Assembly (NCBI GenBank): GCA_902540655.1
Contig: CACBNQ010000014.1
Coordinates: 1 to 35,883, forward strand
Source of the DNA: an uncultured Alphaproteobacteria bacterium
Lineage (GTDB): Bacteria; Pseudomonadota; Alphaproteobacteria; Rhodobacterales; Rhodobacteraceae
Length of the DNA stretch: 35,883 nt
Direction of reading: 5' to 3'
Shown here: positions 3,211 through 34,967 of the stretch, piece by piece
Layout of the letters: every line of letters begins with the position of its first letter
Position numbering within the stretch: the first letter of the stretch is position 1
Notes under the pieces: model-generated
Databases searched by the model: none
What the model was told of the DNA's origin: nothing
What the model saw: the letters and a program-made list of their open reading frames with translations, nothing else
Position numbers and translations under genes: made by a program

Positions 3211-3954
3211 CTATCCTTTCAAGTACTTAGATAGAGAAATCTGTAATAAGTAGCTTATTAAGCCGAATAAAGTAATCGATAAAATTCCGAGTGTAAAAAG
3301 GCTAGCAAACATTAGATCAGTTTTTACTCGACCATTTGCTAAAATCATAAGATATCCCAAGCCTTGAGATGACCCAACCCATTCCCCTATAACTGCTCCA
3401 ATTGGTGCATAGACGCTAGCTAACTTTATTCCGGAACATAAAGAAGGAATGCTATGTGGAATTTTTAAATATAATAGATTTCTTCGGTTTGTTCCTCTCA
3501 TTGTCTTTGCGAGGTCAAGATATCGTTTTGGGGTTTGAGAAAGACCATCATGAAATGCTGAAGTAACAGGAAAATAAATAATCAAGATTGCCATTACGAC
3601 TTTTGACAAAATACCATAACCAAGCCATAAAGTAAGTAATGGGGCAATTGCAAATACCGGAATAGATTGGCTAAATATCAACAGTGGTCTAAGTATCAAG
3701 CGTGCAGTCACGAATATTTCAAGTGTTAACGCAGTAATCATGCCTAATATTATCCCTATGGTGAGCCCAATTAAGACTTCTACAATTGTCACAATTGAAT
3801 GTTCATAAATAAGCAGTGAGTTTTCTTTAAATGCGACTAATACGGAGTAAGGTGTTGGAAGTATATAGGGTGGAGGGTTAGCTAACCTTACCGCTAATTC
3901 CCAAAAAAAGAAAATTGATAAAAAAGTACAGACTATATAAATTATAGCTTTCAT
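3211..3954 (-). CDS. thiX: Thiamin-pyrimidine ABC transporter permease
   Basis: Inner-membrane permease of the BPD_transp_1 family, 247 aa. It has an N-terminal membrane segment (about 4-22) and several further segments. The cytoplasmic EAA-type coupling loop lies at about 148-170 (DLAKTMRGTNRR through KIPHSIP), followed by VIGEWVGSSQGLGYLM, typical of the nitrate/taurine/ThiX permeases. Its ATG overlaps the stop of the ATPase gene by 4 bases (ATGA). With the substrate-binding protein and TenA in the same operon it most likely imports formyl-amino-pyrimidine, a thiamin breakdown product. The symbol follows the ThiXYZ naming and is inferred from context. Confidence 0.88.
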   Translation of the reverse strand: MKAIIYIVCTFLSIFFFWELAVRLANPPPYILPTPYSVLVAFKENSLLIYEHSIVTIVEVLIGLTIGIILGMITALTLEIFVTARLILRPLLIFSQSIPVFAIAPLLTLWLGYGILSKVVMAILIIYFPVTSAFHDGLSQTPKRYLDLAKTMRGTNRRNLLYLKIPHSIPSLCSGIKLASVYAPIGAVIGEWVGSSQGLGYLMILANGRVKTDLMFASLFTLGILSITLFGLISYLLQISLSKYLKG

Positions 3955-7782: not shown

Positions 7783-8593
7783 TATCAGCCCACTTTAAAT
7801 TTGAAAAATTATGAGGGTTCACAAGGGAGAGTTGATCTATAAAATGCGTTCTAAATGAACCTGGGCCATTAGCACTTAATTTTGCTTTATGTCCTGCTTC
7901 AGCGAACAGAGTAGCAGCACTAACGCTAGCAGTGTAGGGATCAGTGATCGCTGTGAAGGCGCCAACTAGACATGTTAAAGAACATCCAATAGCTGTAACA
8001 CTCGACATAAAAGATGACCCGCCTGATACTCGAGTAACCCTTACACCATCTGTGATTATGTCTGTTTCTCCAGTCACGAAAATTGTACAATTATGCTTTT
8101 TTGCAAGTTTCTTACTAGCATTTAAGGCTGTTTCAACTCCTTCTTGAGAGTCTACACCCTTTGCTTCAGTCTCTTCGCCTTGTAAGGCTAAAATTTCAGA
8201 CGCATTCCCTCTTACAACTGAGGGTTCTAGGGATATCAATCTTGCTATTGAGGTTTGACGGTATGGTGTCGCAAAGTGCGCTACAGGATCCAATACCCAA
8301 GGGACTTTTGCTTTATTAGCCGCCTCAATTGCTTTTTCCATACCTTCGAGCCAATTTGGTGAAATAGTACCGATATTTACAGTTAGTGCACCCGCTACTG
8401 GAGAAAAATCTCCACTCTCTTCTGGAGTATGTATCATTGCTGGAGACGCTCCAACTGCCAAAAGCGTATTTGCTGCAATATCCATGGAAACATAATTAGT
8501 TATACAATGCACGAGAGGATTTTTTGCTTTTAATTCTTCAAGACTATTCATTGAGGTCTCCAATGATTTGTGGCCGATGTGAGGAATGCGCAT
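7775..8593 (-). CDS. thiM: Hydroxyethylthiazole kinase
   Basis: Phosphorylates the thiazole alcohol for ThiE; 272 aa from the ATG at 8593. Recognisable are PLVHCITNYVSMDIAANTLL, ASPAMIHTPEE, WVLDPVAHFATP and the anion-hole segment VTAIGCSL with its Cys. First gene behind the TPP riboswitch. Two starts are plausible: ATG 8593, with AGGAG from the riboswitch 3' strand 9 bases upstream, or ATG 8548 (MNSLEELKAKNPLVH, 257 aa), which matches the usual family N-terminus better and has its own GGAG 6 bases upstream. I list the longer form. Confidence 0.93.
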   Translation of the reverse strand: MRIPHIGHKSLETSMNSLEELKAKNPLVHCITNYVSMDIAANTLLAVGASPAMIHTPEESGDFSPVAGALTVNIGTISPNWLEGMEKAIEAANKAKVPWVLDPVAHFATPYRQTSIARLISLEPSVVRGNASEILALQGEETEAKGVDSQEGVETALNASKKLAKKHNCTIFVTGETDIITDGVRVTRVSGGSSFMSSVTAIGCSLTCLVGAFTAITDPYTASVSAATLFAEAGHKAKLSANGPGSFRTHFIDQLSLVNPHNFSNLKWADSV

Positions 8594-8599
8594 ATCTCA

Positions 8600-8678
8600 T
8601 GACTCCTTACGCCAGCATTACCCGGTTCAAGTTTGAGGGTTATTCTCAGCCTCACAAAACAACGAGGCACCCCTGTCA
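8600..8678 (-). promoter_or_regulatory. TPP riboswitch (THI element)
   Basis: Read on the minus strand, the conserved core is present in order: ACAGGGGTGCC, GAGGCTGAGA, ACCC, TTGAACCGGGTAATG, CTGGCGTAAGGAG. The closing helix P1 can form between TGAC (8675-8678) and GTCA (8600-8603). The Shine-Dalgarno AGGAG (8603-8607) adjoins and overlaps the 3' strand of P1, so ligand binding should hide the thiM ribosome site directly. No terminator follows before thiM, so control is most likely translational. A possible -35 (TTGACT, 8709-8714) lies upstream; its -10 is weak. Confidence 0.97.
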
Positions 8679-8921
8679 ATCCACTAGAACATCCTAATTA
8701 ATATTAAAAGTCAAGAGAAAGAATTTCTAGGCGTTTATTTTCAAAAAAGAAGGTGAGATAATTTTCCCAAATAAATAGGTGACCGTATTAATATTCTATT
8801 CAATTAGTAATAGGTTAATTAATAAAAAAAAACGAAATGCCTTGGTATTTCTTAGATTTTTATTTTAATATTTTAGGATACTAAGATCATTACGATTAAT
8901 TGTACTACAAAAACAACGAAA

Positions 8922-20274: not shown

Positions 20275-21354
20275 ATGGTCTCAAAAAATTCTAGAGGGAA
20301 TCGGACTATGCTGTTGATCGTAGGAGCTATGTTTTTTAGTTTGACACTGTATTCCGGTGAAATAATAGCTGCGTTAGTAAAATCAAATCTGCTAACGATT
20401 AATCTTGAAGAAATAAGTGATGATGGTGAAAGCAAAAACAGAAAGATGCTTGCAAATCGACAGCTTGAAGAGGTGACCTCTAAACTACTGAATACAGAAA
20501 AATCGTTGCTCAATAGCAGTCAAGAATTATCTAAATTAGAAATGGCTAGAAAGGGTCTGCAATCGGAAAAGGAGAAACTCAAGCAAAGTATTGAAAAGCT
20601 CAAATTTGAACTGGTAGACCAACAAAACAAAAAAAAATTAGCCGAAAATAAAAAAGAAAAAACCAAAAGTGAGCTGGAACTACTTAAAAACGAAAACGAG
20701 CAGTTGAAAGAGAAAATTAGCGCTTTGGGTGAACTGGCTTTGGAAAAAAACAAACTGGAAAGCGCATTAAATAATTTAAAGAAAAAAAATAGAAGTTTAA
20801 TAGAACAAGTAAAGACTGCCCCTGATAAGGAAAAATTATTAGAAAGATCGGAAGAACTTAAGCAGAAAATAGTTTCACTCAATGAACAACTTACTACTCA
20901 AAAAATGCTGATCGAAGGCTATGAGTCAAATCAACAAATCCAACTAAATAGTATTAGTAGCCCTGGGACTGATAGCAATGACAATTACAAGAAGCTTATA
21001 CTAGATTTAAAGAAAGAACATAGAAATGAGGTTGGAAGATTAAAAAGTGAGATAGCACGATCAGAAAAATATAGAGTTAACTTTGACGAATTAAATGGTA
21101 TTAAAGTCGTCTTTTCCGGTTTTATGGGCTATGACCTGGAACGTAAAGAGATAATTTTTATGACCAGAGAAGGTCAAAAAATAATGATGGTACAAGACAA
21201 TTTTACTGGTACTTTAGTTGGGGAATGTGGGTTGCCGGTTATATCCAGTGAGAATGAGACTAGGTGTGCGGCGACCATAATAGCTCGTTTACTGTTTCAT
21301 AAGAATGGTCCAATAATGAAAGGCTTGGAAATTGTTGAGGTAAGAAAAAAATAA
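20275..21354 (+). CDS. Membrane-anchored coiled-coil protein of unknown function
   Basis: 359 aa, no family recognised. A single membrane segment (about 11-34) follows a short basic N-terminus, so the bulk is probably periplasmic. Residues about 55-235 are a long Lys/Glu/Leu-rich coiled coil with many KLK, EKL and LEKNK repeats. A compact C-terminal domain (about 265-359), with SGFMGYDLERKEI, a CGLP motif and a second Cys (ETRCAATI), looks folded and could be disulfide-bonded. It is followed 47 bases later by a lytic transglycosylase, suggesting a cell-envelope role. Confidence 0.8.
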   Translation: MVSKNSRGNRTMLLIVGAMFFSLTLYSGEIIAALVKSNLLTINLEEISDDGESKNRKMLANRQLEEVTSKLLNTEKSLLNSSQELSKLEMARKGLQSEKEKLKQSIEKLKFELVDQQNKKKLAENKKEKTKSELELLKNENEQLKEKISALGELALEKNKLESALNNLKKKNRSLIEQVKTAPDKEKLLERSEELKQKIVSLNEQLTTQKMLIEGYESNQQIQLNSISSPGTDSNDNYKKLILDLKKEHRNEVGRLKSEIARSEKYRVNFDELNGIKVVFSGFMGYDLERKEIIFMTREGQKIMMVQDNFTGTLVGECGLPVISSENETRCAATIIARLLFHKNGPIMKGLEIVEVRKK

Positions 21355-21365
21355 ATTAACCTATG

Positions 21366-21382
21366 TTGGCATGCTCATTGCA
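21366..21382 (+). promoter_or_regulatory. Sigma-54 type promoter upstream of the lytic transglycosylase
   Basis: TTGGCAT-GCTCA-TTGCA matches TGGCAC-N5-TTGCA with one mismatch, and GG (21368-21369) and GC (21380-21381) are exactly 12 bases apart. The expected transcription start is near 21393, 9 bases before the ATG at 21402. The site overlaps the upstream extension of the gene's open frame, which argues against the earlier starts at 21363 and 21393. Confidence 0.65.
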
Positions 21383-21401
21383 AATTTATTGCATGATCAT
21401 T

Positions 21402-22316
21402 ATGCATTTACGATTTCTTGAGTATAAAATCTCTTTTTTTATTTTCCTATTTATCTTACTAATAAACTTTAGTGGGGTTTACTCCCAATCTACGAATAGT
21501 CACCAAGATGCATTACTGTGTGAGTATCTTGCAAAAGATGCGGAAAAAAAGTACGGATTACCAGAAAATATCCTCCTGAGTATATCCAGAGTTGAATCAG
21601 GTTATCAAAAAGTAGATGGGGTTATACGAGCTTGGCCGTGGACATTAAATGCGGGGGGTGATAGCTCGTATTTTCAAACGAAAGAAGATGCTCTACGATC
21701 ACTGGAAGAAAGAATTAAAAAGGGTGTTACAAATATCGATATTGGTTGTATGCAGCTTAATTTTCGTTGGCACAAAGATTTTTTTAATGACTTAAGTGAT
21801 ATGATAAACCCAATAAATAACGTTGATTACGCAGCAAGATTTCTAAACAAACTGCACAAAAGACATCGTTCATGGGAAAAGGCTGTAAAATACTATCATT
21901 CTTCAAAGAGTAAATTTAACGTAAAATACTACAGAAAGGTTAAAGCGGTCTGGAAAAAAGAGAATAACGAGAGCTCATTGGCACCAAAGTTATTAGCTGC
22001 TGTTCTTGAACCTAGACCTAAAAAAGCAAACATCTTTATAAAGAAAGAAAACAGGGTGCCTTTGATCAAATTGGACCAAAAAGATCAATATTTGCGAGTT
22101 AAAGAGTCTGAAGCTTATAAACAGGATATTAACGAGAATAAGTCTGAAGTCGTTAGTGCGGTGAATTTTCATACGATGGTAGACACTAATACTGAATTTG
22201 ATTTTACGAGTTTTGTCAAAAGTATAAGTCGCAAAAATACAGCAATGCCTAAATATATTCGTGATAATTGGACAATTGTGTTATCAATAAGGAATCAACT
22301 TGAAAACAGCAAGTAA
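21402..22316 (+). CDS. Lytic transglycosylase (SLT domain), exported
   Basis: Murein lytic transglycosylase. From the ATG at 21402 it is 304 aa with a signal peptide (basic MHLRFLEYK, hydrophobic 11-24, cleavage near residue 28). The SLT domain follows: catalytic Glu65 in ISRVESGY, DIGCMQLNFRWH (the GLMQ-type motif), AARFLNKL and AVKYYHSS. The last about 110 residues are charged and unlike known domains. The frame is open to 21363, but that start would run through the sigma-54 promoter and spoil the signal peptide. No Shine-Dalgarno is seen. A role in clearing peptidoglycan for flagellum assembly is inferred from promoter and setting. Confidence 0.85.
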   Translation: MHLRFLEYKISFFIFLFILLINFSGVYSQSTNSHQDALLCEYLAKDAEKKYGLPENILLSISRVESGYQKVDGVIRAWPWTLNAGGDSSYFQTKEDALRSLEERIKKGVTNIDIGCMQLNFRWHKDFFNDLSDMINPINNVDYAARFLNKLHKRHRSWEKAVKYYHSSKSKFNVKYYRKVKAVWKKENNESSLAPKLLAAVLEPRPKKANIFIKKENRVPLIKLDQKDQYLRVKESEAYKQDINENKSEVVSAVNFHTMVDTNTEFDFTSFVKSISRKNTAMPKYIRDNWTIVLSIRNQLENSK

Positions 22317-26261: not shown

Positions 26262-26278
26262 TTGGTACTATAATTGCA
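26262..26278 (+). promoter_or_regulatory. Sigma-54 type promoter of motAB
   Basis: TTGGTAC-TATAA-TTGCA fits the YTGGYAC-N5-TTGCW consensus, with GG (26264-26265) and GC (26276-26277) 12 bases apart. The expected transcription start near 26289 leaves a leader of about 39 bases containing AAAGGA before the motA ATG at 26328. Confidence 0.75.
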
Positions 26279-26327
26279 ATGTTTATTGTTGCAGGTAACA
26301 AAATATTATGAGGATAAAGGAAAAACC

Positions 26328-27092
26328 ATGGATATAGCCTCTCTTCTAGGATTAATCGGAGCTCTTGGATTTATAATATACGCAATGGTTTCGGGCGGCG
26401 GCGTTGGTCCTTTTATAGATGTACCTTCACTAGCTATCGTTTTTGGTGGAACTTTCTTTTGTGTTATGTACACATGTCCTTTACCAACGTTTCTTGGTTC
26501 TTTCGGTGTAATGGCAAAAGCTTTTTTTCCACCTGTGAAACCTCAAGATGAATTAGTAACAAAGATGGTGGAATTAGCAGGTATTGCCAGGAAAGATGGA
26601 ATGATGGCACTTGAAGGTCAAGATGTGCCTGATAAGTTTTTTTCCAAGGGATTACAAATGCTTGTTGACGGAGCAGATGAGGCCAAACTGACAACGCAAT
26701 TAAATCAAGAGATAAAGGCTATGAAGGCACGCCATGAGACTAATCAAGGTGTTGTAAAGGCATGGATAGATATTGCTCCGGCTATGGGTATGATTGGTAC
26801 ACTAGTAGGACTAGTCTTGATGCTCGGAAATATGGCAGACCCAAAGGCAATTGGCCCAGCCATGGCTGTTGCTCTTTTGACAACTCTATATGGAGCTTTT
26901 ATAGCAAACGTGTTGTTTTTGCCAATGATAACTTCTCTTGAAGGTTATACCGCGTATGAGGTCACTTACAGGGAAATGGTTGTTATGGGCTTAAGAAATA
27001 TTGCAAGAGGGGAGTCCCCAAGAAATATTCAAGATCAGATGGTGGCAAATTTACCACCTGCAGTACAACAAAAAATTGAAGCTGCCGCTTAA
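26328..27092 (+). CDS. motA: Flagellar stator subunit, PomA/MotA type
   Basis: Four-TM stator protein of the MotA/TolQ/ExbB family, 254 aa. The start at ATG 26328 has AAAGGA 6 bases upstream and gives MDIASLLGLIGALGF, the PomA-type N-terminus; an upstream in-frame start at 26274 would run through the sigma-54 promoter. The cytoplasmic loop (about 70-150) carries the charged residues contacting FliG, and IDIAPAMGMIGTLVGLV and the following segment form TM3/TM4 with the conserved prolines. Closer in look to PomA than to E. coli MotA. Confidence 0.95.
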   Translation: MDIASLLGLIGALGFIIYAMVSGGGVGPFIDVPSLAIVFGGTFFCVMYTCPLPTFLGSFGVMAKAFFPPVKPQDELVTKMVELAGIARKDGMMALEGQDVPDKFFSKGLQMLVDGADEAKLTTQLNQEIKAMKARHETNQGVVKAWIDIAPAMGMIGTLVGLVLMLGNMADPKAIGPAMAVALLTTLYGAFIANVLFLPMITSLEGYTAYEVTYREMVVMGLRNIARGESPRNIQDQMVANLPPAVQQKIEAAA

Positions 27093-27121: not shown

Positions 27122-28282
27122 GTGGCAGAAGAAGTAGAAGCTGAGATAGAAGAAGAGGAAGAGGAATGCCCAAAGTGCCCTCCTGTTGGGGCTCCTGCAT
27201 GGATGGCAACTTTTGCAGATATGGCGACCCTTTTAATGGCATTCTTTGTTCTCATTCTGTCATTTGCAGAATTTAACGTGCCCAAATTTAAACAGATATC
27301 CGGTTCGTTGAAGAATGCATTTGGTGTTCAAAGGTTGGTGCCCGTTGTTGAGCAACCAAAAGGAACTACGGTGTTGTCCTTAAACTTTAGCCCTTCTCCC
27401 AGTCCATCAGTTACAAAGCAGATGACCCAACAAACCACTAATCTGGAAAAAAAAGAGCTTGAAGTAAAAACGGAAGAAGATGAGGGAGGCGAGAAGGATA
27501 AAAAAGCTAAAGAATTAGTAGAAGCCCTTCAAGAAGCTGTTGATAAAGGAGAAATAAAAGTAGAAGCAATTGGGGAAGCTGTAAAAGTAGAAATAGGTGA
27601 TGAAGAGACTTTGGCGAAGGACCTTCCTAAGTTGATACAAGAAACACTAGAAGCTATTGAAGAAGCTAAGAATAAAACAGGTAATGCTGATCAAGAGGTG
27701 CTTTTTGGGGGTCTTGAGGATAAATTAAAAGAATTAGCATCTCTTGCACAGACAGAGGCTGATGGCGAAACAAAAGGTTCATCAAAAGATTCCGGTTCAG
27801 GGAAAACAGATAAAGAAAAGTCGGCAGAAGAAGCGTCAGCCAATCAAGCAGCGAATGAACTTGAAGTTGCTTTAAAAAATGAAATAGATAAGGGTCTTGT
27901 TAGTGTGGAAAGAAAAGATGGCAAGGTCTTCGTGACAGTAGGCTCTGGCGGAGCATTTTCATCAGGATCAGCGGAGTTAACGTCTCAAGCAAGACAGATT
28001 ATGGCAAAAATTGCTGATAAGGGGGTAGGAAAGACAGGGACAGTGACTGTTTCTGGCCATACTGATAATGTTCCCTTGATGTTTGGGGGAAATTTCAGAG
28101 ACAACTGGGATTTAGCTGCAGCTAGAGCATCTAGTGTCGTGCAAGAGCTCGAGAAAGCAGGAAACATAAGCACAGATAGAATGAAAGCGGTGAGCTTTGG
28201 TGAGTCGAAGCCAATTGATACAAATGAGACTTCTGCTGGAAGAGAAAAAAATAGAAGAATTGAGATTGAAATAAATTTTTGA
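27122..28282 (+). CDS. motB: Flagellar stator subunit, PomB/MotB type, with extended linker
   Basis: 386 aa, longer than the about 310 aa usual. GTG start with AAGGGA upstream. A Glu-rich N-terminus and CPKCPPVGAPAWM precede the single TM; TFADMATLLMAFF (30-42) holds the ion-binding Asp33. A plug-like region LKNAFGVQRL is at 63-72. A Lys/Glu-rich linker of about 200 residues follows. The OmpA-like peptidoglycan-binding domain (about 277-386) has VSGHTDNVPL, NWDLAAARAS and NRRIEIEI. Segment 129-160 resembles segment 244-275, just before the OmpA domain, suggesting internal duplication. Pairs with MotA 29 bases upstream. Confidence 0.94.
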   Translation: MAEEVEAEIEEEEEECPKCPPVGAPAWMATFADMATLLMAFFVLILSFAEFNVPKFKQISGSLKNAFGVQRLVPVVEQPKGTTVLSLNFSPSPSPSVTKQMTQQTTNLEKKELEVKTEEDEGGEKDKKAKELVEALQEAVDKGEIKVEAIGEAVKVEIGDEETLAKDLPKLIQETLEAIEEAKNKTGNADQEVLFGGLEDKLKELASLAQTEADGETKGSSKDSGSGKTDKEKSAEEASANQAANELEVALKNEIDKGLVSVERKDGKVFVTVGSGGAFSSGSAELTSQARQIMAKIADKGVGKTGTVTVSGHTDNVPLMFGGNFRDNWDLAAARASSVVQELEKAGNISTDRMKAVSFGESKPIDTNETSAGREKNRRIEIEINF

Positions 28283-28355
28283 TTATCGTACCTAAACACC
28301 GTTTGGATTTATTTGCACCAAATGCATTGTTAAAATTCGATATCAGCAAAAATCT

Positions 28356-28418
28356 TACAGCTGTATTTCGATAGATTTGACAATTACTATTTACGTTATC
28401 AACGTTGAAACAGCTGTA
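28356..28418. repeat. Paired ACAGCTGT palindromes able to form a long stem
   Basis: TACAGCTGTA (28356-28365) is a perfect 10-base palindrome, and ACAGCTGT recurs at 28410-28417. The two copies can also pair with each other: TACAGCTGT plus TTC against GAA plus ACAGCTGTA, about 12 bp with a 2-base bulge. The loop contains its own small hairpin, ACGTT-ATC-AACGT (28393-28405). This could be a structured transcript or a pair of dyad binding sites. Confidence 0.4.
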
Positions 28419-28990
28419 GTAAAAAGCTTGTTGATTTGAATAACCAAAATTGTGACCTTTCTGCGATGGATACTAAAATTCATTTAAAATGGAGGGATCT
28501 AACAACGCATCCATACGCATGTGCTTTTGCCTGATTTTATCTACCCTCGCTGAGATACATATATAAGCGCCCCCAAAGAGAGGATTTAGGTCTATGGAGG
28601 GATATGAAAAAATAGGGTTTTCCTAATTGCATTAAAAAGCAAGATAATCGATTTTATATAAGATTATCCACAAAAAATCAGAAAATTTATTTTCTAAATA
28701 GTCATTTGTTTCTCTTCTTCAGAGCGTTATTGGCAAATTTGTATTCCTGTTGTTTTGTAGATGAGATCAATAACTGGAAAAGCAATAGGTGTGAGCCAAG
28801 TTATAAGATATATCATTATGCCAGCACATCTGCGTCTTTGGTTATTATAAACCAATTAAAATATTAATGTAAGATCACTCAATTTTATTTTATGGGATTT
28901 GCTAAGGGAAGTTGAGAGGTATTTTAGTATTTTTTTGATACACTATTCATGAAAAAATTTTTGGTCTAAAGATTTTTTTTTAATAATTAC

Positions 28991-29014
28991 TAAATTCTAT
29001 AAAAATAGAATTTA
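28991..29014 (+). terminator. AT-rich hairpin, possible terminator
   Basis: TAAATTCTAT-AAAA-ATAGAATTTA, a perfect 10-bp stem with a 4-base loop, followed on the plus strand by ATTTTTATTT. It lies 700 bases past motB. The stem is nearly all A/T and therefore weak; it could terminate an unannotated plus-strand transcript in this region. Confidence 0.35.
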
Positions 29015-29419
29015 ATTTTTATTTGCGCTATGATGGACTGCGATTGATCTATTAAAAGTTTAAGTTGTAGAGACTTTCTTAAATTTAGATTAGGGAAGGA
29101 TAATACTAGAAAAATTATCCAGAATTACTTTGAAACGATCAAGTATACTTAAAGCAAAATAGGCATTTTGTATTAAAAACAATATCAATCAAGCTTGTTA
29201 TTGCGCAAAAAAGTAATGGTGAGATTAACTGAAATTAGTGCTTGCCATCCAAATATTTTTGCTGATTACTCTATATTCTTGCTTCGAAAGTCCATGCATT
29301 TATTCACCTGTTTATTGTAGGAAGGTATAGAGAGAGACCAATACATACTATTTAGGAAAATTATTACTCAAACACAAAATGCATACCTGAGTGGGGGGTT
29401 AACCTTTTATTCAGGGTTC

Positions 29420-30301
29420 TTATGTGTATTGTTGTGAGGCTTTGAGAACATTTCCAGATTTATTCTTTTTCCTAGGCTTAGGAACTTCCTTTTTATAAGG
29501 TTTTACGACGGCATTTATAAAATTAACTTTTTCATCGAGGTTCCGACACATCTCTTGAGCTTCTTTATCGGATCTTGCTGCAACTATTGCCCATACTTGC
29601 CTATCCTGAAACAGTCCGTAACTTCTTCTAAGAGTGACTTGGCCTTTTCTTAAATAGAGGCCTACTAAAACGACTGCTAATATAAAAAGATATATATTTA
29701 CGCTGAAGGTGATAAGATAAACACAGAGTATCGCTAACAATGGCTCCCACATTTTCTGTTGCACCAACCATACCGGAGGCAAGATAACTGCCAGCTGAGT
29801 ATGTGTCGTATCGTAGACATCTACCACTCTTTTAACGTCTCTCAGTGCCTCAAAAATACGGTATTCCTCTTTCTGTCCCATTTCCCTTTTCTGAAACAAT
29901 TCCATGATCATCTGGGACTCCTCAGGACGAGTGAATTCAAAAATTCCACCTAATGGACCTCTGGTGAATATTTCAAAAAACTTGCCATTTCTCCACACCG
30001 TTAAGAGCCACATGTCATCTTCTTCTCCACTAGACAGTAGATCAACCAATTTATCTATGCTCTCGTGATAACTGCTTCCATCTATCGCAACTATCACATC
30101 ATTTTCTTTCAGTCGTAAAGCTTTAGTTCTAGAAGATTGGCCATGCTCTTTAAGCTTTAAGAAAGTTTGCAGTTGTACTTCTTCAGAAGAACTTTCGTTT
30201 AACTCATTAGAATTTTCGTCGGACATTTCCGACTCAATGAAGTCCTCGTTTTCGCTCTCTGGTTGTTGACTATCTAAATCTTGCATAGTAGCTTGTTCCA
30301 A
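29420..30301 (-). CDS. PDZ-like membrane protein in the flagellar operon tail
   Basis: 293 aa, no named family. A very acidic, Ser/Asn/Glu-rich N-terminus (1-45) leads to a PDZ-like domain (about 50-115: KALRLKENDVIVAIDGSSY and a WLLTVWRNGKFFEI strand). A helical section (125-170) and a hydrophobic stretch (about 187-216) long enough for a hairpin of two short TM helices follow. A C-terminal cytoplasmic-type domain with a basic end (KKEVPKPRKKNKSG) completes the protein. It starts 4 bases after the coiled-coil gene, so it is the last gene of the fliM-to-tail operon. A scaffold at the flagellar base is a guess from location. Confidence 0.8.
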   Translation of the reverse strand: MEQATMQDLDSQQPESENEDFIESEMSDENSNELNESSSEEVQLQTFLKLKEHGQSSRTKALRLKENDVIVAIDGSSYHESIDKLVDLLSSGEEDDMWLLTVWRNGKFFEIFTRGPLGGIFEFTRPEESQMIMELFQKREMGQKEEYRIFEALRDVKRVVDVYDTTHTQLAVILPPVWLVQQKMWEPLLAILCVYLITFSVNIYLFILAVVLVGLYLRKGQVTLRRSYGLFQDRQVWAIVAARSDKEAQEMCRNLDEKVNFINAVVKPYKKEVPKPRKKNKSGNVLKASQQYT

Positions 30302-30305
30302 AAAA

Positions 30306-31055
30306 TCATGGGAATTTAATCAGTCCATCTGAGCTCTTAATTTTACTGAATATTTCTTCGTTCTTTTTATAGAGAGATCTGATTTCTTTTGTTAATTGGT
30401 TTTGAGACTTAGATATCTCTTCCATAACCATATTGTCAGATGTAGAAGCCTTCATATTCTTTAAAGAAGCGAGGAGTTCATTTTGATAAGCATCAATTCC
30501 TTTACTAAGCTTATTAAGCCTTTTTTCAAATGATTGGGCTATTTTTTCAGCAAATATATTAACCGCTTGCTCTGTATTTTTGGTCATTGCGTCCTGTAAG
30601 CCTTTGTTTTGTTCAAGCACTCTGCTAGCGAGAGCATTTGTTGCAACAGAAATTTCTTTTCTCAAAGAAGATAACTCCTCTACTAATTTCGCATTCTGTT
30701 TTTCGAGTGCTACCTGACTCTCCATGGCCACTGATAAAGCTTTGACGTTATCTTTGAGATCATCAACATTTTCTGCAAAAATCACAAGAGCCTCTCTATT
30801 TGTAGTCGTCATCACACTCAAATCTGACATTGAACGAAAATAGAGCACTGATGAAAATACCATCGCTACTATTGCTGCGATCATAGAGCTCCCAAAAATT
30901 ATAGTCGTATAACGATGTATTTGCTTCACTTGTGTCTCCAGTTTTTTATGCTCTCTTTTTACTTTGTTGTATTCAGAGGTTACATCAGTTGCCGCGTCTG
31001 CTGCATCTAGGGCGATTTTAATACTTTCTTCGATTGTACTTAGATCTGAACTCAT
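30306..31055 (-). CDS. Membrane coiled-coil protein in the flagellar operon tail
   Basis: 249 aa, family not recognised. A short cytoplasmic helix (1-48, heptad-like, ending in KKLETQVKQIHRY), one membrane segment (about 50-73) and a long helical coiled-coil region (80-240) rich in Ala, Lys, Glu and Ser with no Cys. The topology resembles chemoreceptor- or stator-associated coiled coils, but no MCP signalling motif is present. It starts inside the stop of the preceding gene (TAATG overlap), so translation is coupled. Confidence 0.8.
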   Translation of the reverse strand: MSSDLSTIEESIKIALDAADAATDVTSEYNKVKREHKKLETQVKQIHRYTTIIFGSSMIAAIVAMVFSSVLYFRSMSDLSVMTTTNREALVIFAENVDDLKDNVKALSVAMESQVALEKQNAKLVEELSSLRKEISVATNALASRVLEQNKGLQDAMTKNTEQAVNIFAEKIAQSFEKRLNKLSKGIDAYQNELLASLKNMKASTSDNMVMEEISKSQNQLTKEIRSLYKKNEEIFSKIKSSDGLIKFP

Positions 31056-31249
31056 TAATGTGACCTCCTGCGAGATTCAATTGTTTTTTCAACGTTTCTA
31101 CGTTTGTAGTAAGCACATTTCATGCCAGTTGTTGCCATAACCTCTTGGTAAGGAATCTTTGACGACTTGAAACCAAACTTTCGACAACCCCACCTTCGTC
31201 TAGGATCATGTGTAATAAACAAATGAATGCATTGATTACAAGTTGTCAT
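31055..31249 (-). CDS. 64-aa Cys-rich protein, possible zinc-binding
   Basis: Small basic protein with Cys4, Cys7, His9, Cys22 and Cys45 in the pattern CNQCIHLFITHDPRRRWGCR...GFKS...TGMKCAYY. This resembles a small proteobacterial family of the form CxxCxH-x(n)-GCRxxGFKS-x(n)-SGxxC, often left as hypothetical; I recall it only as a pattern. Metal binding by the cysteines is likely. It overlaps the upstream two-TM gene by 4 bases and the downstream coiled-coil gene by 1, so it belongs to the flagellar operon. Confidence 0.8.
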   Translation of the reverse strand: MTTCNQCIHLFITHDPRRRWGCRKFGFKSSKIPYQEVMATTGMKCAYYKRRNVEKTIESRRRSH

Positions 31250-31479
31250 GATTTTCTATTTTTTTTCTCACCTATAGAGTCAAAAAGGCGAGCTATTGCA
31301 TATCTAAAGACAGCCAGGCACAACAAAAAACAGACAATCCAAATAACTACAGCTCTAAAAATATTGCCCGCATAAAATGCTTCAAGACCGTTTAATAGGG
31401 ATAGAAAAGCAACTCCTCCAAAGCAAGCGGAACTTATATAGTCTCCAAGAGATTCGTGGCTTCTTCTAGGCATATCCAT
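31246..31479 (-). CDS. 77-aa two-TM membrane protein
   Basis: Small protein with a basic N-terminus (MDMPRRSHESLGDY), two membrane segments (about 14-33 and 41-64) and a basic C-terminal tail (GEKKNRKS). No family recognised. Its start lies 14 bases inside the end of flhB and its stop overlaps the next gene by 4 bases, indicating tight coupling with flhB translation. Confidence 0.75.
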   Translation of the reverse strand: MDMPRRSHESLGDYISSACFGGVAFLSLLNGLEAFYAGNIFRAVVIWIVCFLLCLAVFRYAIARLFDSIGEKKNRKS

Positions 31480-32629
31480 TCTCCTTCAAAATCGTTCCAT
31501 TTTCATTGAATCTTAAATCCTCTGGAACATCAATAGCTGGGGTTTCTATATCTTCCCCTCTGTCTAGTTTATAAACATATGCTAGTGCTACTGCCACCGC
31601 ATTGTAAAGCTTTTCAGAGATCTCTTCTCCAATTTCTCCTGTAAAAAATAATGCCCTAGCGAGTAGTGGGCTTCGAAAACTTGTTATGTTCTTCTCAGTG
31701 CCGATATCTATTATCCTTTTTGCGATCAGTCCTTTACCCATCGCAATGATTTTGGGGGCTCCTAATTGCCCAACTTCGTATTTGAGAGCTACAGCAAAAT
31801 GCGTTGGGTTTGTTATAATAGCTGTGGCTTCACCCATGTTTTCTAAGGCTTCTTGCTGCTTCGCAGATTTCGTGGCACTTTCCATTTGAAGTCGCCTTAT
31901 TTTCGCTCTTACTTCAGGGGAACCCTCCGTTTGTTTATACTCGTCTTTAACTTCTTGCTTAGTCATTCGAAGAGACTTGATGTGCTCATACCTTTGATAA
32001 AAATAGTCTATTGCCGCTATTACCAATAAACAAATCAGCAAGGCTCCTATCAAAAGCGGAAAAGAAGATTGAGTGAGTTCTAGCCCAGTCTTTAGATTAC
32101 CATCTGTAATTCGCAGTATTTGAGGCAGCAAATAGTAAATTACGCCAATAGCACTTGCAAATAACAAACCGACTTTTAATAATGCCTTTCCAAGCTCAAC
32201 TAAACTCTTTAAGGAGAACATTCTTTTTAATCCACTTAACGGATTAATTCTATTAGATTTGAAAGTGAGGGCTTTGGGCGCAAAATTTATACCTCCAACG
32301 GCAAATTGCGTAGCCAATACGACGACTAACATTGGCACGCCAACATATAGAGAGATTTTTAATATAAAAAATAAAGCATCTAATGATTTTGTTGTTGGTA
32401 AATCGTCCAGCTTGTCATTTCCTGTGAAAACAAATAGATTTCCCCATTCAAATAAGAGTGGTTTAAATGCAAAAGAAAAAGCGTACATAAGCAACAAAGC
32501 TCCTGCGATCCCTGTGAAAACAAACATTTCTTTAGAACTTAAAACCTTTCCGTCTTCTTTATGTTTGTCAATTTTGCGTTGGGAAGGCTCCTCCGTTTTT
32601 TCCTGTCCATCTTGGTTTTCTTCAGCCAT
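31466..32629 (-). CDS. flhB: Flagellar export switch protein
   Basis: Type III export component controlling the rod/hook-to-filament substrate switch. 387 aa: cytoplasmic N-terminus with EKTEEPSQRKIDKHKEDGKVLSS-type sequence (10-32), four membrane segments (about 33-60, 85-112, 145-170, 187-210) and the cytoplasmic domain with the autocleavage site NPTH (274-277) in ITNPTHFAVALKYE. The C-terminal tail after about residue 360 is slightly extended. It overlaps fliR by 8 bases. Confidence 0.97.
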   Translation of the reverse strand: MAEENQDGQEKTEEPSQRKIDKHKEDGKVLSSKEMFVFTGIAGALLLMYAFSFAFKPLLFEWGNLFVFTGNDKLDDLPTTKSLDALFFILKISLYVGVPMLVVVLATQFAVGGINFAPKALTFKSNRINPLSGLKRMFSLKSLVELGKALLKVGLLFASAIGVIYYLLPQILRITDGNLKTGLELTQSSFPLLIGALLICLLVIAAIDYFYQRYEHIKSLRMTKQEVKDEYKQTEGSPEVRAKIRRLQMESATKSAKQQEALENMGEATAIITNPTHFAVALKYEVGQLGAPKIIAMGKGLIAKRIIDIGTEKNITSFRSPLLARALFFTGEIGEEISEKLYNAVAVALAYVYKLDRGEDIETPAIDVPEDLRFNENGTILKENGYA

Positions 32630-34949: not shown

Positions 34950-34967
34950 GGCAAATATTGTGCCAAA
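34950..34967 (-). promoter_or_regulatory. Sigma-54 type promoter of fliOPQR-flhB
   Basis: On the minus strand TTTGGCAC-AATAT-TTGCC contains a perfect TGGCAC (34960-34965) and TTGC (34951-34954) with exact spacing. The predicted start near 34939 lies 1 base upstream of the AAGGAGG ribosome site (34932-34938), giving a 5' leader of about 13 bases for fliO. It is in the 120-base gap after fliN. Confidence 0.8.

Follow-up and report, generated by a model that had tools for sequence, protein, structure and literature searches.

Behind flhB on the minus strand of the window, i.e. the whole stretch of 35,883 nucleotides that was analysed, lie four genes to which we refer as A, B, C and D (Table 1). 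flhB scores 337.5 bits against the NCBIfam flhB model, just below the cut-off of 349; fliR, fliQ and fliP are clear by profile in the window and fliO is weak. A sequence-only reading of this DNA had pointed out the four open reading frames. Because their dN/dS values against the congener L036 are low (0.094 for A, 0.058 for B, 0.024 for C and 0.107 for D, i.e. 0.02-0.11, with 0.032 for flhB), they are genes under purifying selection and not chance ORFs.

Table 1. Features at and near the flhB locus of the window.
Feature	Position	Strand	Description
flhB	31466..32629	-	Pfam Bac_export_2, E 6e-98; heads the cassette; export gate/switch gene
gene A	31246..31473	-	75 aa, membrane protein; earlier 77-aa start at 31479
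gene B	31055..31249	-	64-aa Cys4 protein
gene C	30306..31055	-	249 aa; N-terminal helix, TM ~52-70, coiled coil, C-terminal IKFP
gene D	29420..30286	-	288 aa; predicted PDZ domain, membrane hairpin and strand-helix; earlier TTG start at 30301
motB	27122..28282	+	MotB_plug and OmpA domains; convergent with gene D
motA	26274..27092	+	TTG start, frame as called; 70-83% identical MotA in cassette clusters of other genera
rpoN	23739-25271		gene in the window

Two of the starts are more likely to lie downstream of those first chosen. For gene A the second ATG (31473) is preferred: AAGGAG ends 7 bases ahead of it, and the first ATG is absent in the congeners L036 and L037. For gene D the ATG at 30286 is kept in all 11 same-genus loci examined, and several of these either lack the TTG or carry an in-frame stop after it. 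Gene A would hence have 75 rather than 77 amino acids, and D 288 rather than 293. With these starts flhB and A overlap by 8 bases, A and B by 4, and B and C by 1 with AGGAGG ahead, and C and D are separated by a 19-base gap. The junctions, given earlier as a 14-base overlap to a 4-base gap, now run from an 8-base overlap to a 19-base gap.

Some features elsewhere in the window are also worth recording. We counted 13 sigma-54-like sites with at most one mismatch vs 3.3 expected, among them one where the motA frame begins, at 26263-26278 (+), and one at 34950-34965 (-), just ahead of fliO. The ~1.1 kb between motB and D (28283-29419, 30% G+C) has no convincing gene; it is 85-93% alike in 3/10 related loci searched and unmatched in 7. 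A TPP riboswitch at 8587-8684 (-), with 60.2 bits vs the Rfam gathering score of 54.3, precedes a same-strand gene run; one member of this run, 3211-3954, gave matches to ABC permease families. At 20275-22316 (+) lie two neighbouring ORFs, 359 and 317 aa long, with no NCBIfam match at 1e-5.

The four genes recur together behind flhB in many genomes. By a scan of genome contigs with alignment A1, we took 80 of at least 107 relatives (the listed named loci). FlhB-A-B-C stands in this order in 79/80 of them, and D follows in 78 and is present in 79. According to the record titles, 37/80 are SAR116 or Puniceispirillum and most others just Alphaproteobacteria, while a few MAG titles read Gammaproteobacteria, Pelagibacterales, Rickettsiales or Planktomarina, labels that were taken as given. 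This set shares contigs with loci fetched earlier, and the two sets are hence not independent. The earlier set has 29 C-bearing loci (the window, L031 and L032 left out), with A in 26, B in 20, and D after C in 27. D is missing in L034, where the contig ends inside C, and in L059 (genome G676), where C stands alone, with A and B missing as well. A search of 385 genomes of the class with the single C sequence gave 11 matches. One of these (G389) is coil only and was left out of the C counts; the ten true C genomes, the window's included, fall into five families (f1, f9, f19, f104 and f109).

The order fliP-fliQ-fliR-flhB-(A)-B-C-D recurs in 10-20 kb stretches around the C genes. The same order is found on plasmid pOA238_118 of Octadecabacter arcticus 238, with C and D annotated as hypothetical and no gene annotated under B. 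In most of the 10-20 kb stretches motA/motB lie beside the cassette, but not in L034 (cut by the contig) or L035. A convergent MotB is in view in 45/80 listed loci; of the remaining 35, 30 offer at least 3 kb of room behind D, and we therefore rejected motA/motB as a constant neighbour of the cassette. In two Rhodobacteraceae-family loci an opposite-strand gene of ~190 aa was seen just ahead of motF (L065, 9228-9809 (-); L061, 9108-9677 (-)). The distances to FlhB in a mirror comparison correlate at 0.69 for A, 0.59 for B, 0.74 for C and 0.86 for D, with FliR as a yardstick at 0.82, over 49 loci left after dereplication of 95, and shared descent also yields such correlations. L015 and the cut-off L074 were dropped from alignment A8, and L015 from alignment A9. 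Judged by gene order, flhB-A-B-C-D is a conserved cassette.

No above-threshold family name was found for A-D in Pfam, NCBIfam or PHROGs. A literature search, judged by titles, found no description of A, B or D, and no paper joining a PDZ domain, the flagellar motor, the stator and alphaproteobacteria. The sequence-only reading had seen no standard flagellar gene among the four, which holds per Pfam and NCBIfam; gene C, nevertheless, is an orthologue of the flagellar protein MotF. Profile A1, built without the sequence of G456, has one match at E 0.001 in that genome, which is presumably R. sphaeroides 2.4.1, with which the published MotF size and TM agree. This match is the gene behind flhB (E 1.4e-7, model positions 5-120), encoding 239 aa of 24.8 kDa with a TM at 54-74 by hydropathy. 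Passages of PMC7277832 give the MotF of C. sphaeroides Fla1 24 kDa and a TM at 54-74, and describe a protein that Fla1 needs in order to rotate, that can be spared once the MotB plug is changed, and that interacts with FlgT. Because the sole profile match in G456 is the gene behind flhB, with TM and mass as published, gene C is by its profile and position a distant orthologue of MotF from Cereibacter (Rhodobacter) sphaeroides Fla1. The two proteins share 16% identity, so their likeness is at the profile level only.

The C. sphaeroides protein resembles window C in its single TM near residue 54 and its long C-terminal half. The loci are also alike, with motF behind flhB, a D-family gene next (E 7.6e-13 in G456) and FlgT present, but in Fla1 neither A nor B separates flhB from motF, as both do in the window. 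We take RSP_0067 to be the motF locus tag, and motF reportedly heads a unit with hypothetical genes. In passages of PMC9779115, RSP_0066 is flhB and RSP_0067 a hypothetical protein among motility genes. The single TM claimed earlier for gene C agrees with hydropathy, by which 52-70 is the only TM-like segment, and one TM is consistent with a periplasmic C-terminal half as in MotF. By analogy, window C would be needed for rotation and bypassed by MotB plug mutations. The C family ends in (F/Y)P in 79/79 listed named loci with the stop in view, and in 28/29 rows of alignment A6 (L034, cut by the contig, left out), the exception being L035. PHROG tape-measure and Pfam coil matches of C were taken as generic coiled-coil matches.

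There is a second protein under the name MotF, in Sinorhizobium and Agrobacterium, which the title of Sobe et al. (cited in PMC9812332) calls a FliL paralogue. It shares the name and, as proposed for gene C, stator activity, whereas neither Pfam nor NCBIfam gave C a FliL match; on sequence grounds the two are not the same protein. MotF is called Cereibacter-specific in a passage of PMC10954123 and restricted to some Rhodobacteraceae in one of PMC7277832, while the C family found here also includes SAR116 and other alphaproteobacterial families.

For gene D, an AlphaFold2 model made with 26 sequences (pLDDT 87, pTM 0.76) has a PDZ-like domain, strands, helices 185-201 and 203-231 in a hydrophobic stretch, and a strand-helix end, the residue numbers counting from the TTG start. 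In a Foldseek comparison with the PDB, PDZ chains rank first; single PDZ domains reach TMt 0.60-0.70 with E ~1e-3 to 2e-3, and PDZ2 of RseP has TMt 0.70. The Pfam scores stay below the gathering scores for both PDZ_2 (18.3 bits vs 27) and DUF2628 (21.6 bits vs 23). The N-terminal part of D is thus predicted to have the PDZ fold, as in the PDZ domains of RseP-type proteases and GRASP. Protease models match the PDZ region of D sub-threshold only, and the rest differs from RseP-type proteases in being a membrane hairpin and a DUF2628-like stretch. Both ends of D are probably cytoplasmic because of the positive charges after the hairpin. We considered a binding of the (F/Y)P tail of MotF by the PDZ domain of D and rejected it, since the predicted topology puts them on opposite membrane sides. 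The C-termini of MotA, MotB and FlhB were inspected and offer no compelling PDZ ligand. Profile A7 of D has matches in 230/299 phylum genomes; among the matches listed, none outside the window is full-length D, and all except the window's cover the PDZ part or the DUF2628-like part only.

Gene A had been described as a two-TM protein, but hydropathy above 1.6 flags its second segment only, with the first borderline. The family has a conserved motif SLG(E/D)xIS (SLGEMIS) and an invariant arginine near the C-terminus, usually followed by F (L035, in which no start was found, was left out of alignment A4). The A profile matches behind flhB in 26/29 C-bearing fetched loci and 79/80 listed named loci. 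In L068 A remains behind flhB and the C-D pair lies away from it, ~3 kb from motA; in G432 A with flhB and C-D are on separate contigs (C85 and C41; loci L061 and L208); and in G479 A is behind FlhB with no B, C or D near by. The staying of A with flhB where C-D lie elsewhere is compatible with an export role for A. Because C. sphaeroides lacks A and B there and G479 lacks C-D, the distribution suggests one part, A(-B), that goes with the gate and another, C-D, that goes with the motor. One could go further and regard A and B as accessories of the type III export gate, acting in FlhB folding, stability or switching, with only C-D belonging to the motor, i.e. two adjoining units. The constancy of A behind flhB, its persistence where C-D are elsewhere (L068, G432) or missing (G479), and the overlaps at flhB/A, A/B and B/C vs the gap at C/D all point this way. 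But B is absent from 9/29 loci with the same kind of gate, and C. sphaeroides Fla1 has no A or B there and is yet functional according to passages of PMC7277832. We consider this separation possible, though on the unlikely side.

Gene B, noticed earlier as Cys-rich, has C4, C7, C22 and C45 invariant in 21/21 rows of alignment A5; a zinc-ribbon-like protein would show four such conserved cysteines. It has no family match in Pfam or NCBIfam, and its fold model is modest (pLDDT 77) with no PDB match at E 0.001. It is present in 20/29 C-bearing loci and all 80 listed named loci. Of 61 genomes searched for B at the protein level, 14 carry it: 13 of the 22 from the window's genus, which are 58-91% complete (the window's own is among the 13), and a single genome from a different family. 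The B family reaches wider, with matches in 82/398 phylum genomes, the window's included. A 71-aa Cys-rich relative on a plasmid of the Bacillota Rossellomorea (CP128836) is annotated as uracil-DNA glycosylase; this name on a B relative looks like a mis-annotation.

The 29 outside B loci that were fetched (L078-L106) all lack A, C and D. In these loci, which have flanks of ~1.5 kb and in which flagellar genes were sought using the window's own proteins only, a motif search found a Rieske-like small gene near B in 24/29, a possible clue to the function of the B family. By eye, a hook-protein-like frame adjoins B in L081, and L080 has a weak MotB match; because of these two cases and the short flanks, flagellar links of the outside B loci are possible. 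An occurrence apart from flagella, which the sequence-only reading had held to speak against its proposal, was thus seen for the wider B family only. These loci raise the question of whether B is a hitch-hiking metal or Fe-S housekeeping protein, with the flagellar genes limited to A, C and D. We find this very doubtful: the many relatives and the recurring Rieske-like neighbour speak for it, but at our locus B sits between A and C with overlaps of 4 and 1 bases and is kept in every listed named locus, and the short flanks and the frame in L081 weaken the case further.

The cassette goes along with one kind of flagellum. We ran the C profile against 295 genomes from 294 genera of the window's family and obtained 21 matches; searched with the window FlhB, the same set split into 22 genomes scoring at least 285 bits and a remainder scoring no more than 161. 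C is found in 21/22 genomes with the window-type FlhB, the exception being G479, and at E 0.001 in none of the other 273, though 200 of these carry another FlhB type. This tie of C to one flagellar type, together with the gene order, supports the earlier idea of an accessory module at the flagellar base. Of 10 cassette genomes tested, 9 match FlgT_N, the window's genome among them, and 8 of these exceed the cut-off; none of 14 control genomes matches. Passages of PMC12363192 describe two horizontally spread flagellar types in Rhodobacterales, the C. sphaeroides type among them, and Fla1 is said in PMC7277832 to come from a gammaproteobacterium. From the similarity of FlhB, the rpoN gene of the window and the FlgT of its genome, we infer that the window's flagellum belongs to these horizontally spread types.

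C and D, in turn, look alphaproteobacterial within the genomes sampled. In 210 genomes of the class of G742, presumably Gammaproteobacteria, profile A6 matched 13; the 17 places listed all fall within model positions 84-240, and none of them covers the N-terminal helix or TM of C. We took these coil-only matches as chance and, on this sample, rejected a source of C outside Alphaproteobacteria.

A landmark function would be another use for such genes, the cassette setting the position or number of flagella (polar or subpolar) and not stator activity. In favour of it, D resembles, in its model, a PDZ membrane anchor of scaffold-like shape. Against it, 8/10 cassette genomes have a match to the FlhF profile no more than 5 kb from FlgT, but none of these matches reaches the curated cut-off and 14/14 control genomes match the profile too, making it a weak signal. 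In view of these matches a replacement of FlhF was also set aside. The stronger objection comes from MotF: according to passages of PMC7277832, cells that have lost it no longer swim, and altering the MotB plug brings swimming back. We hold a landmark role to be highly unlikely.

Our analysis favours, with a probability of about 0.55, that A-D form a conserved motor-activation cassette, MotF and three partners, of a horizontally spread, FlgT-bearing flagellum of the C. sphaeroides Fla1 type. The activation role is drawn from the MotF literature, and the contacts and roles of A, B and D would follow from linkage. MotF has a single span; its periplasmic part is believed to act together with FliL and the FlgT ring in relieving the MotB plug, upon which the stator channel would open. 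D, with its predicted PDZ domain on a cytoplasmic-side membrane hairpin, and A and B may make up the part of this apparatus that lies at the inner membrane and in the cytoplasm, where they could hold MotF, or set its position, next to the export gate and the rotor. Such positioning would let stators be activated only at a finished motor, and translational coupling would keep A-D in proportion to FlhB. Among the functions guessed at earlier, i.e. scaffold, stator placement or polar anchoring, MotF makes the stator side the best match.

Several observations stand against the motor-activation cassette. At this place C. sphaeroides lacks A and B, G676 lacks A, B and D, and G479 lacks B, C and D; A stays with flhB where C-D lie elsewhere; relatives of B often occur with no A, C or D; and MotB does not adjoin in the 30 listed roomy loci. 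The predicted cytoplasmic PDZ domain and the periplasmic C-terminus of MotF would lie on opposite sides of the membrane, and the likeness of window C to MotF is at the profile level only. We speculate also about a stronger form, rather improbable in our estimate, in which A-B-C-D make one trans-envelope licensing complex that reads gate completion through A and a metal or redox signal through B, and relays them via D and MotF to the MotB plug. If true, stators would open only on finished motors under suitable conditions.

The earlier proposal of an undescribed system is only partly right because gene C is MotF, which is already described in C. sphaeroides with a mutant phenotype and interaction data; no description was found of A, B or D. 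MotF, described as special to Cereibacter or some Rhodobacteraceae, is here one gene of a four-gene cassette, and this cassette is carried by SAR116 and other marine alphaproteobacteria. Because motF is one gene of their cassette, the three unnamed genes A, B and D are strong candidates for accessory parts of the flagellar motor.
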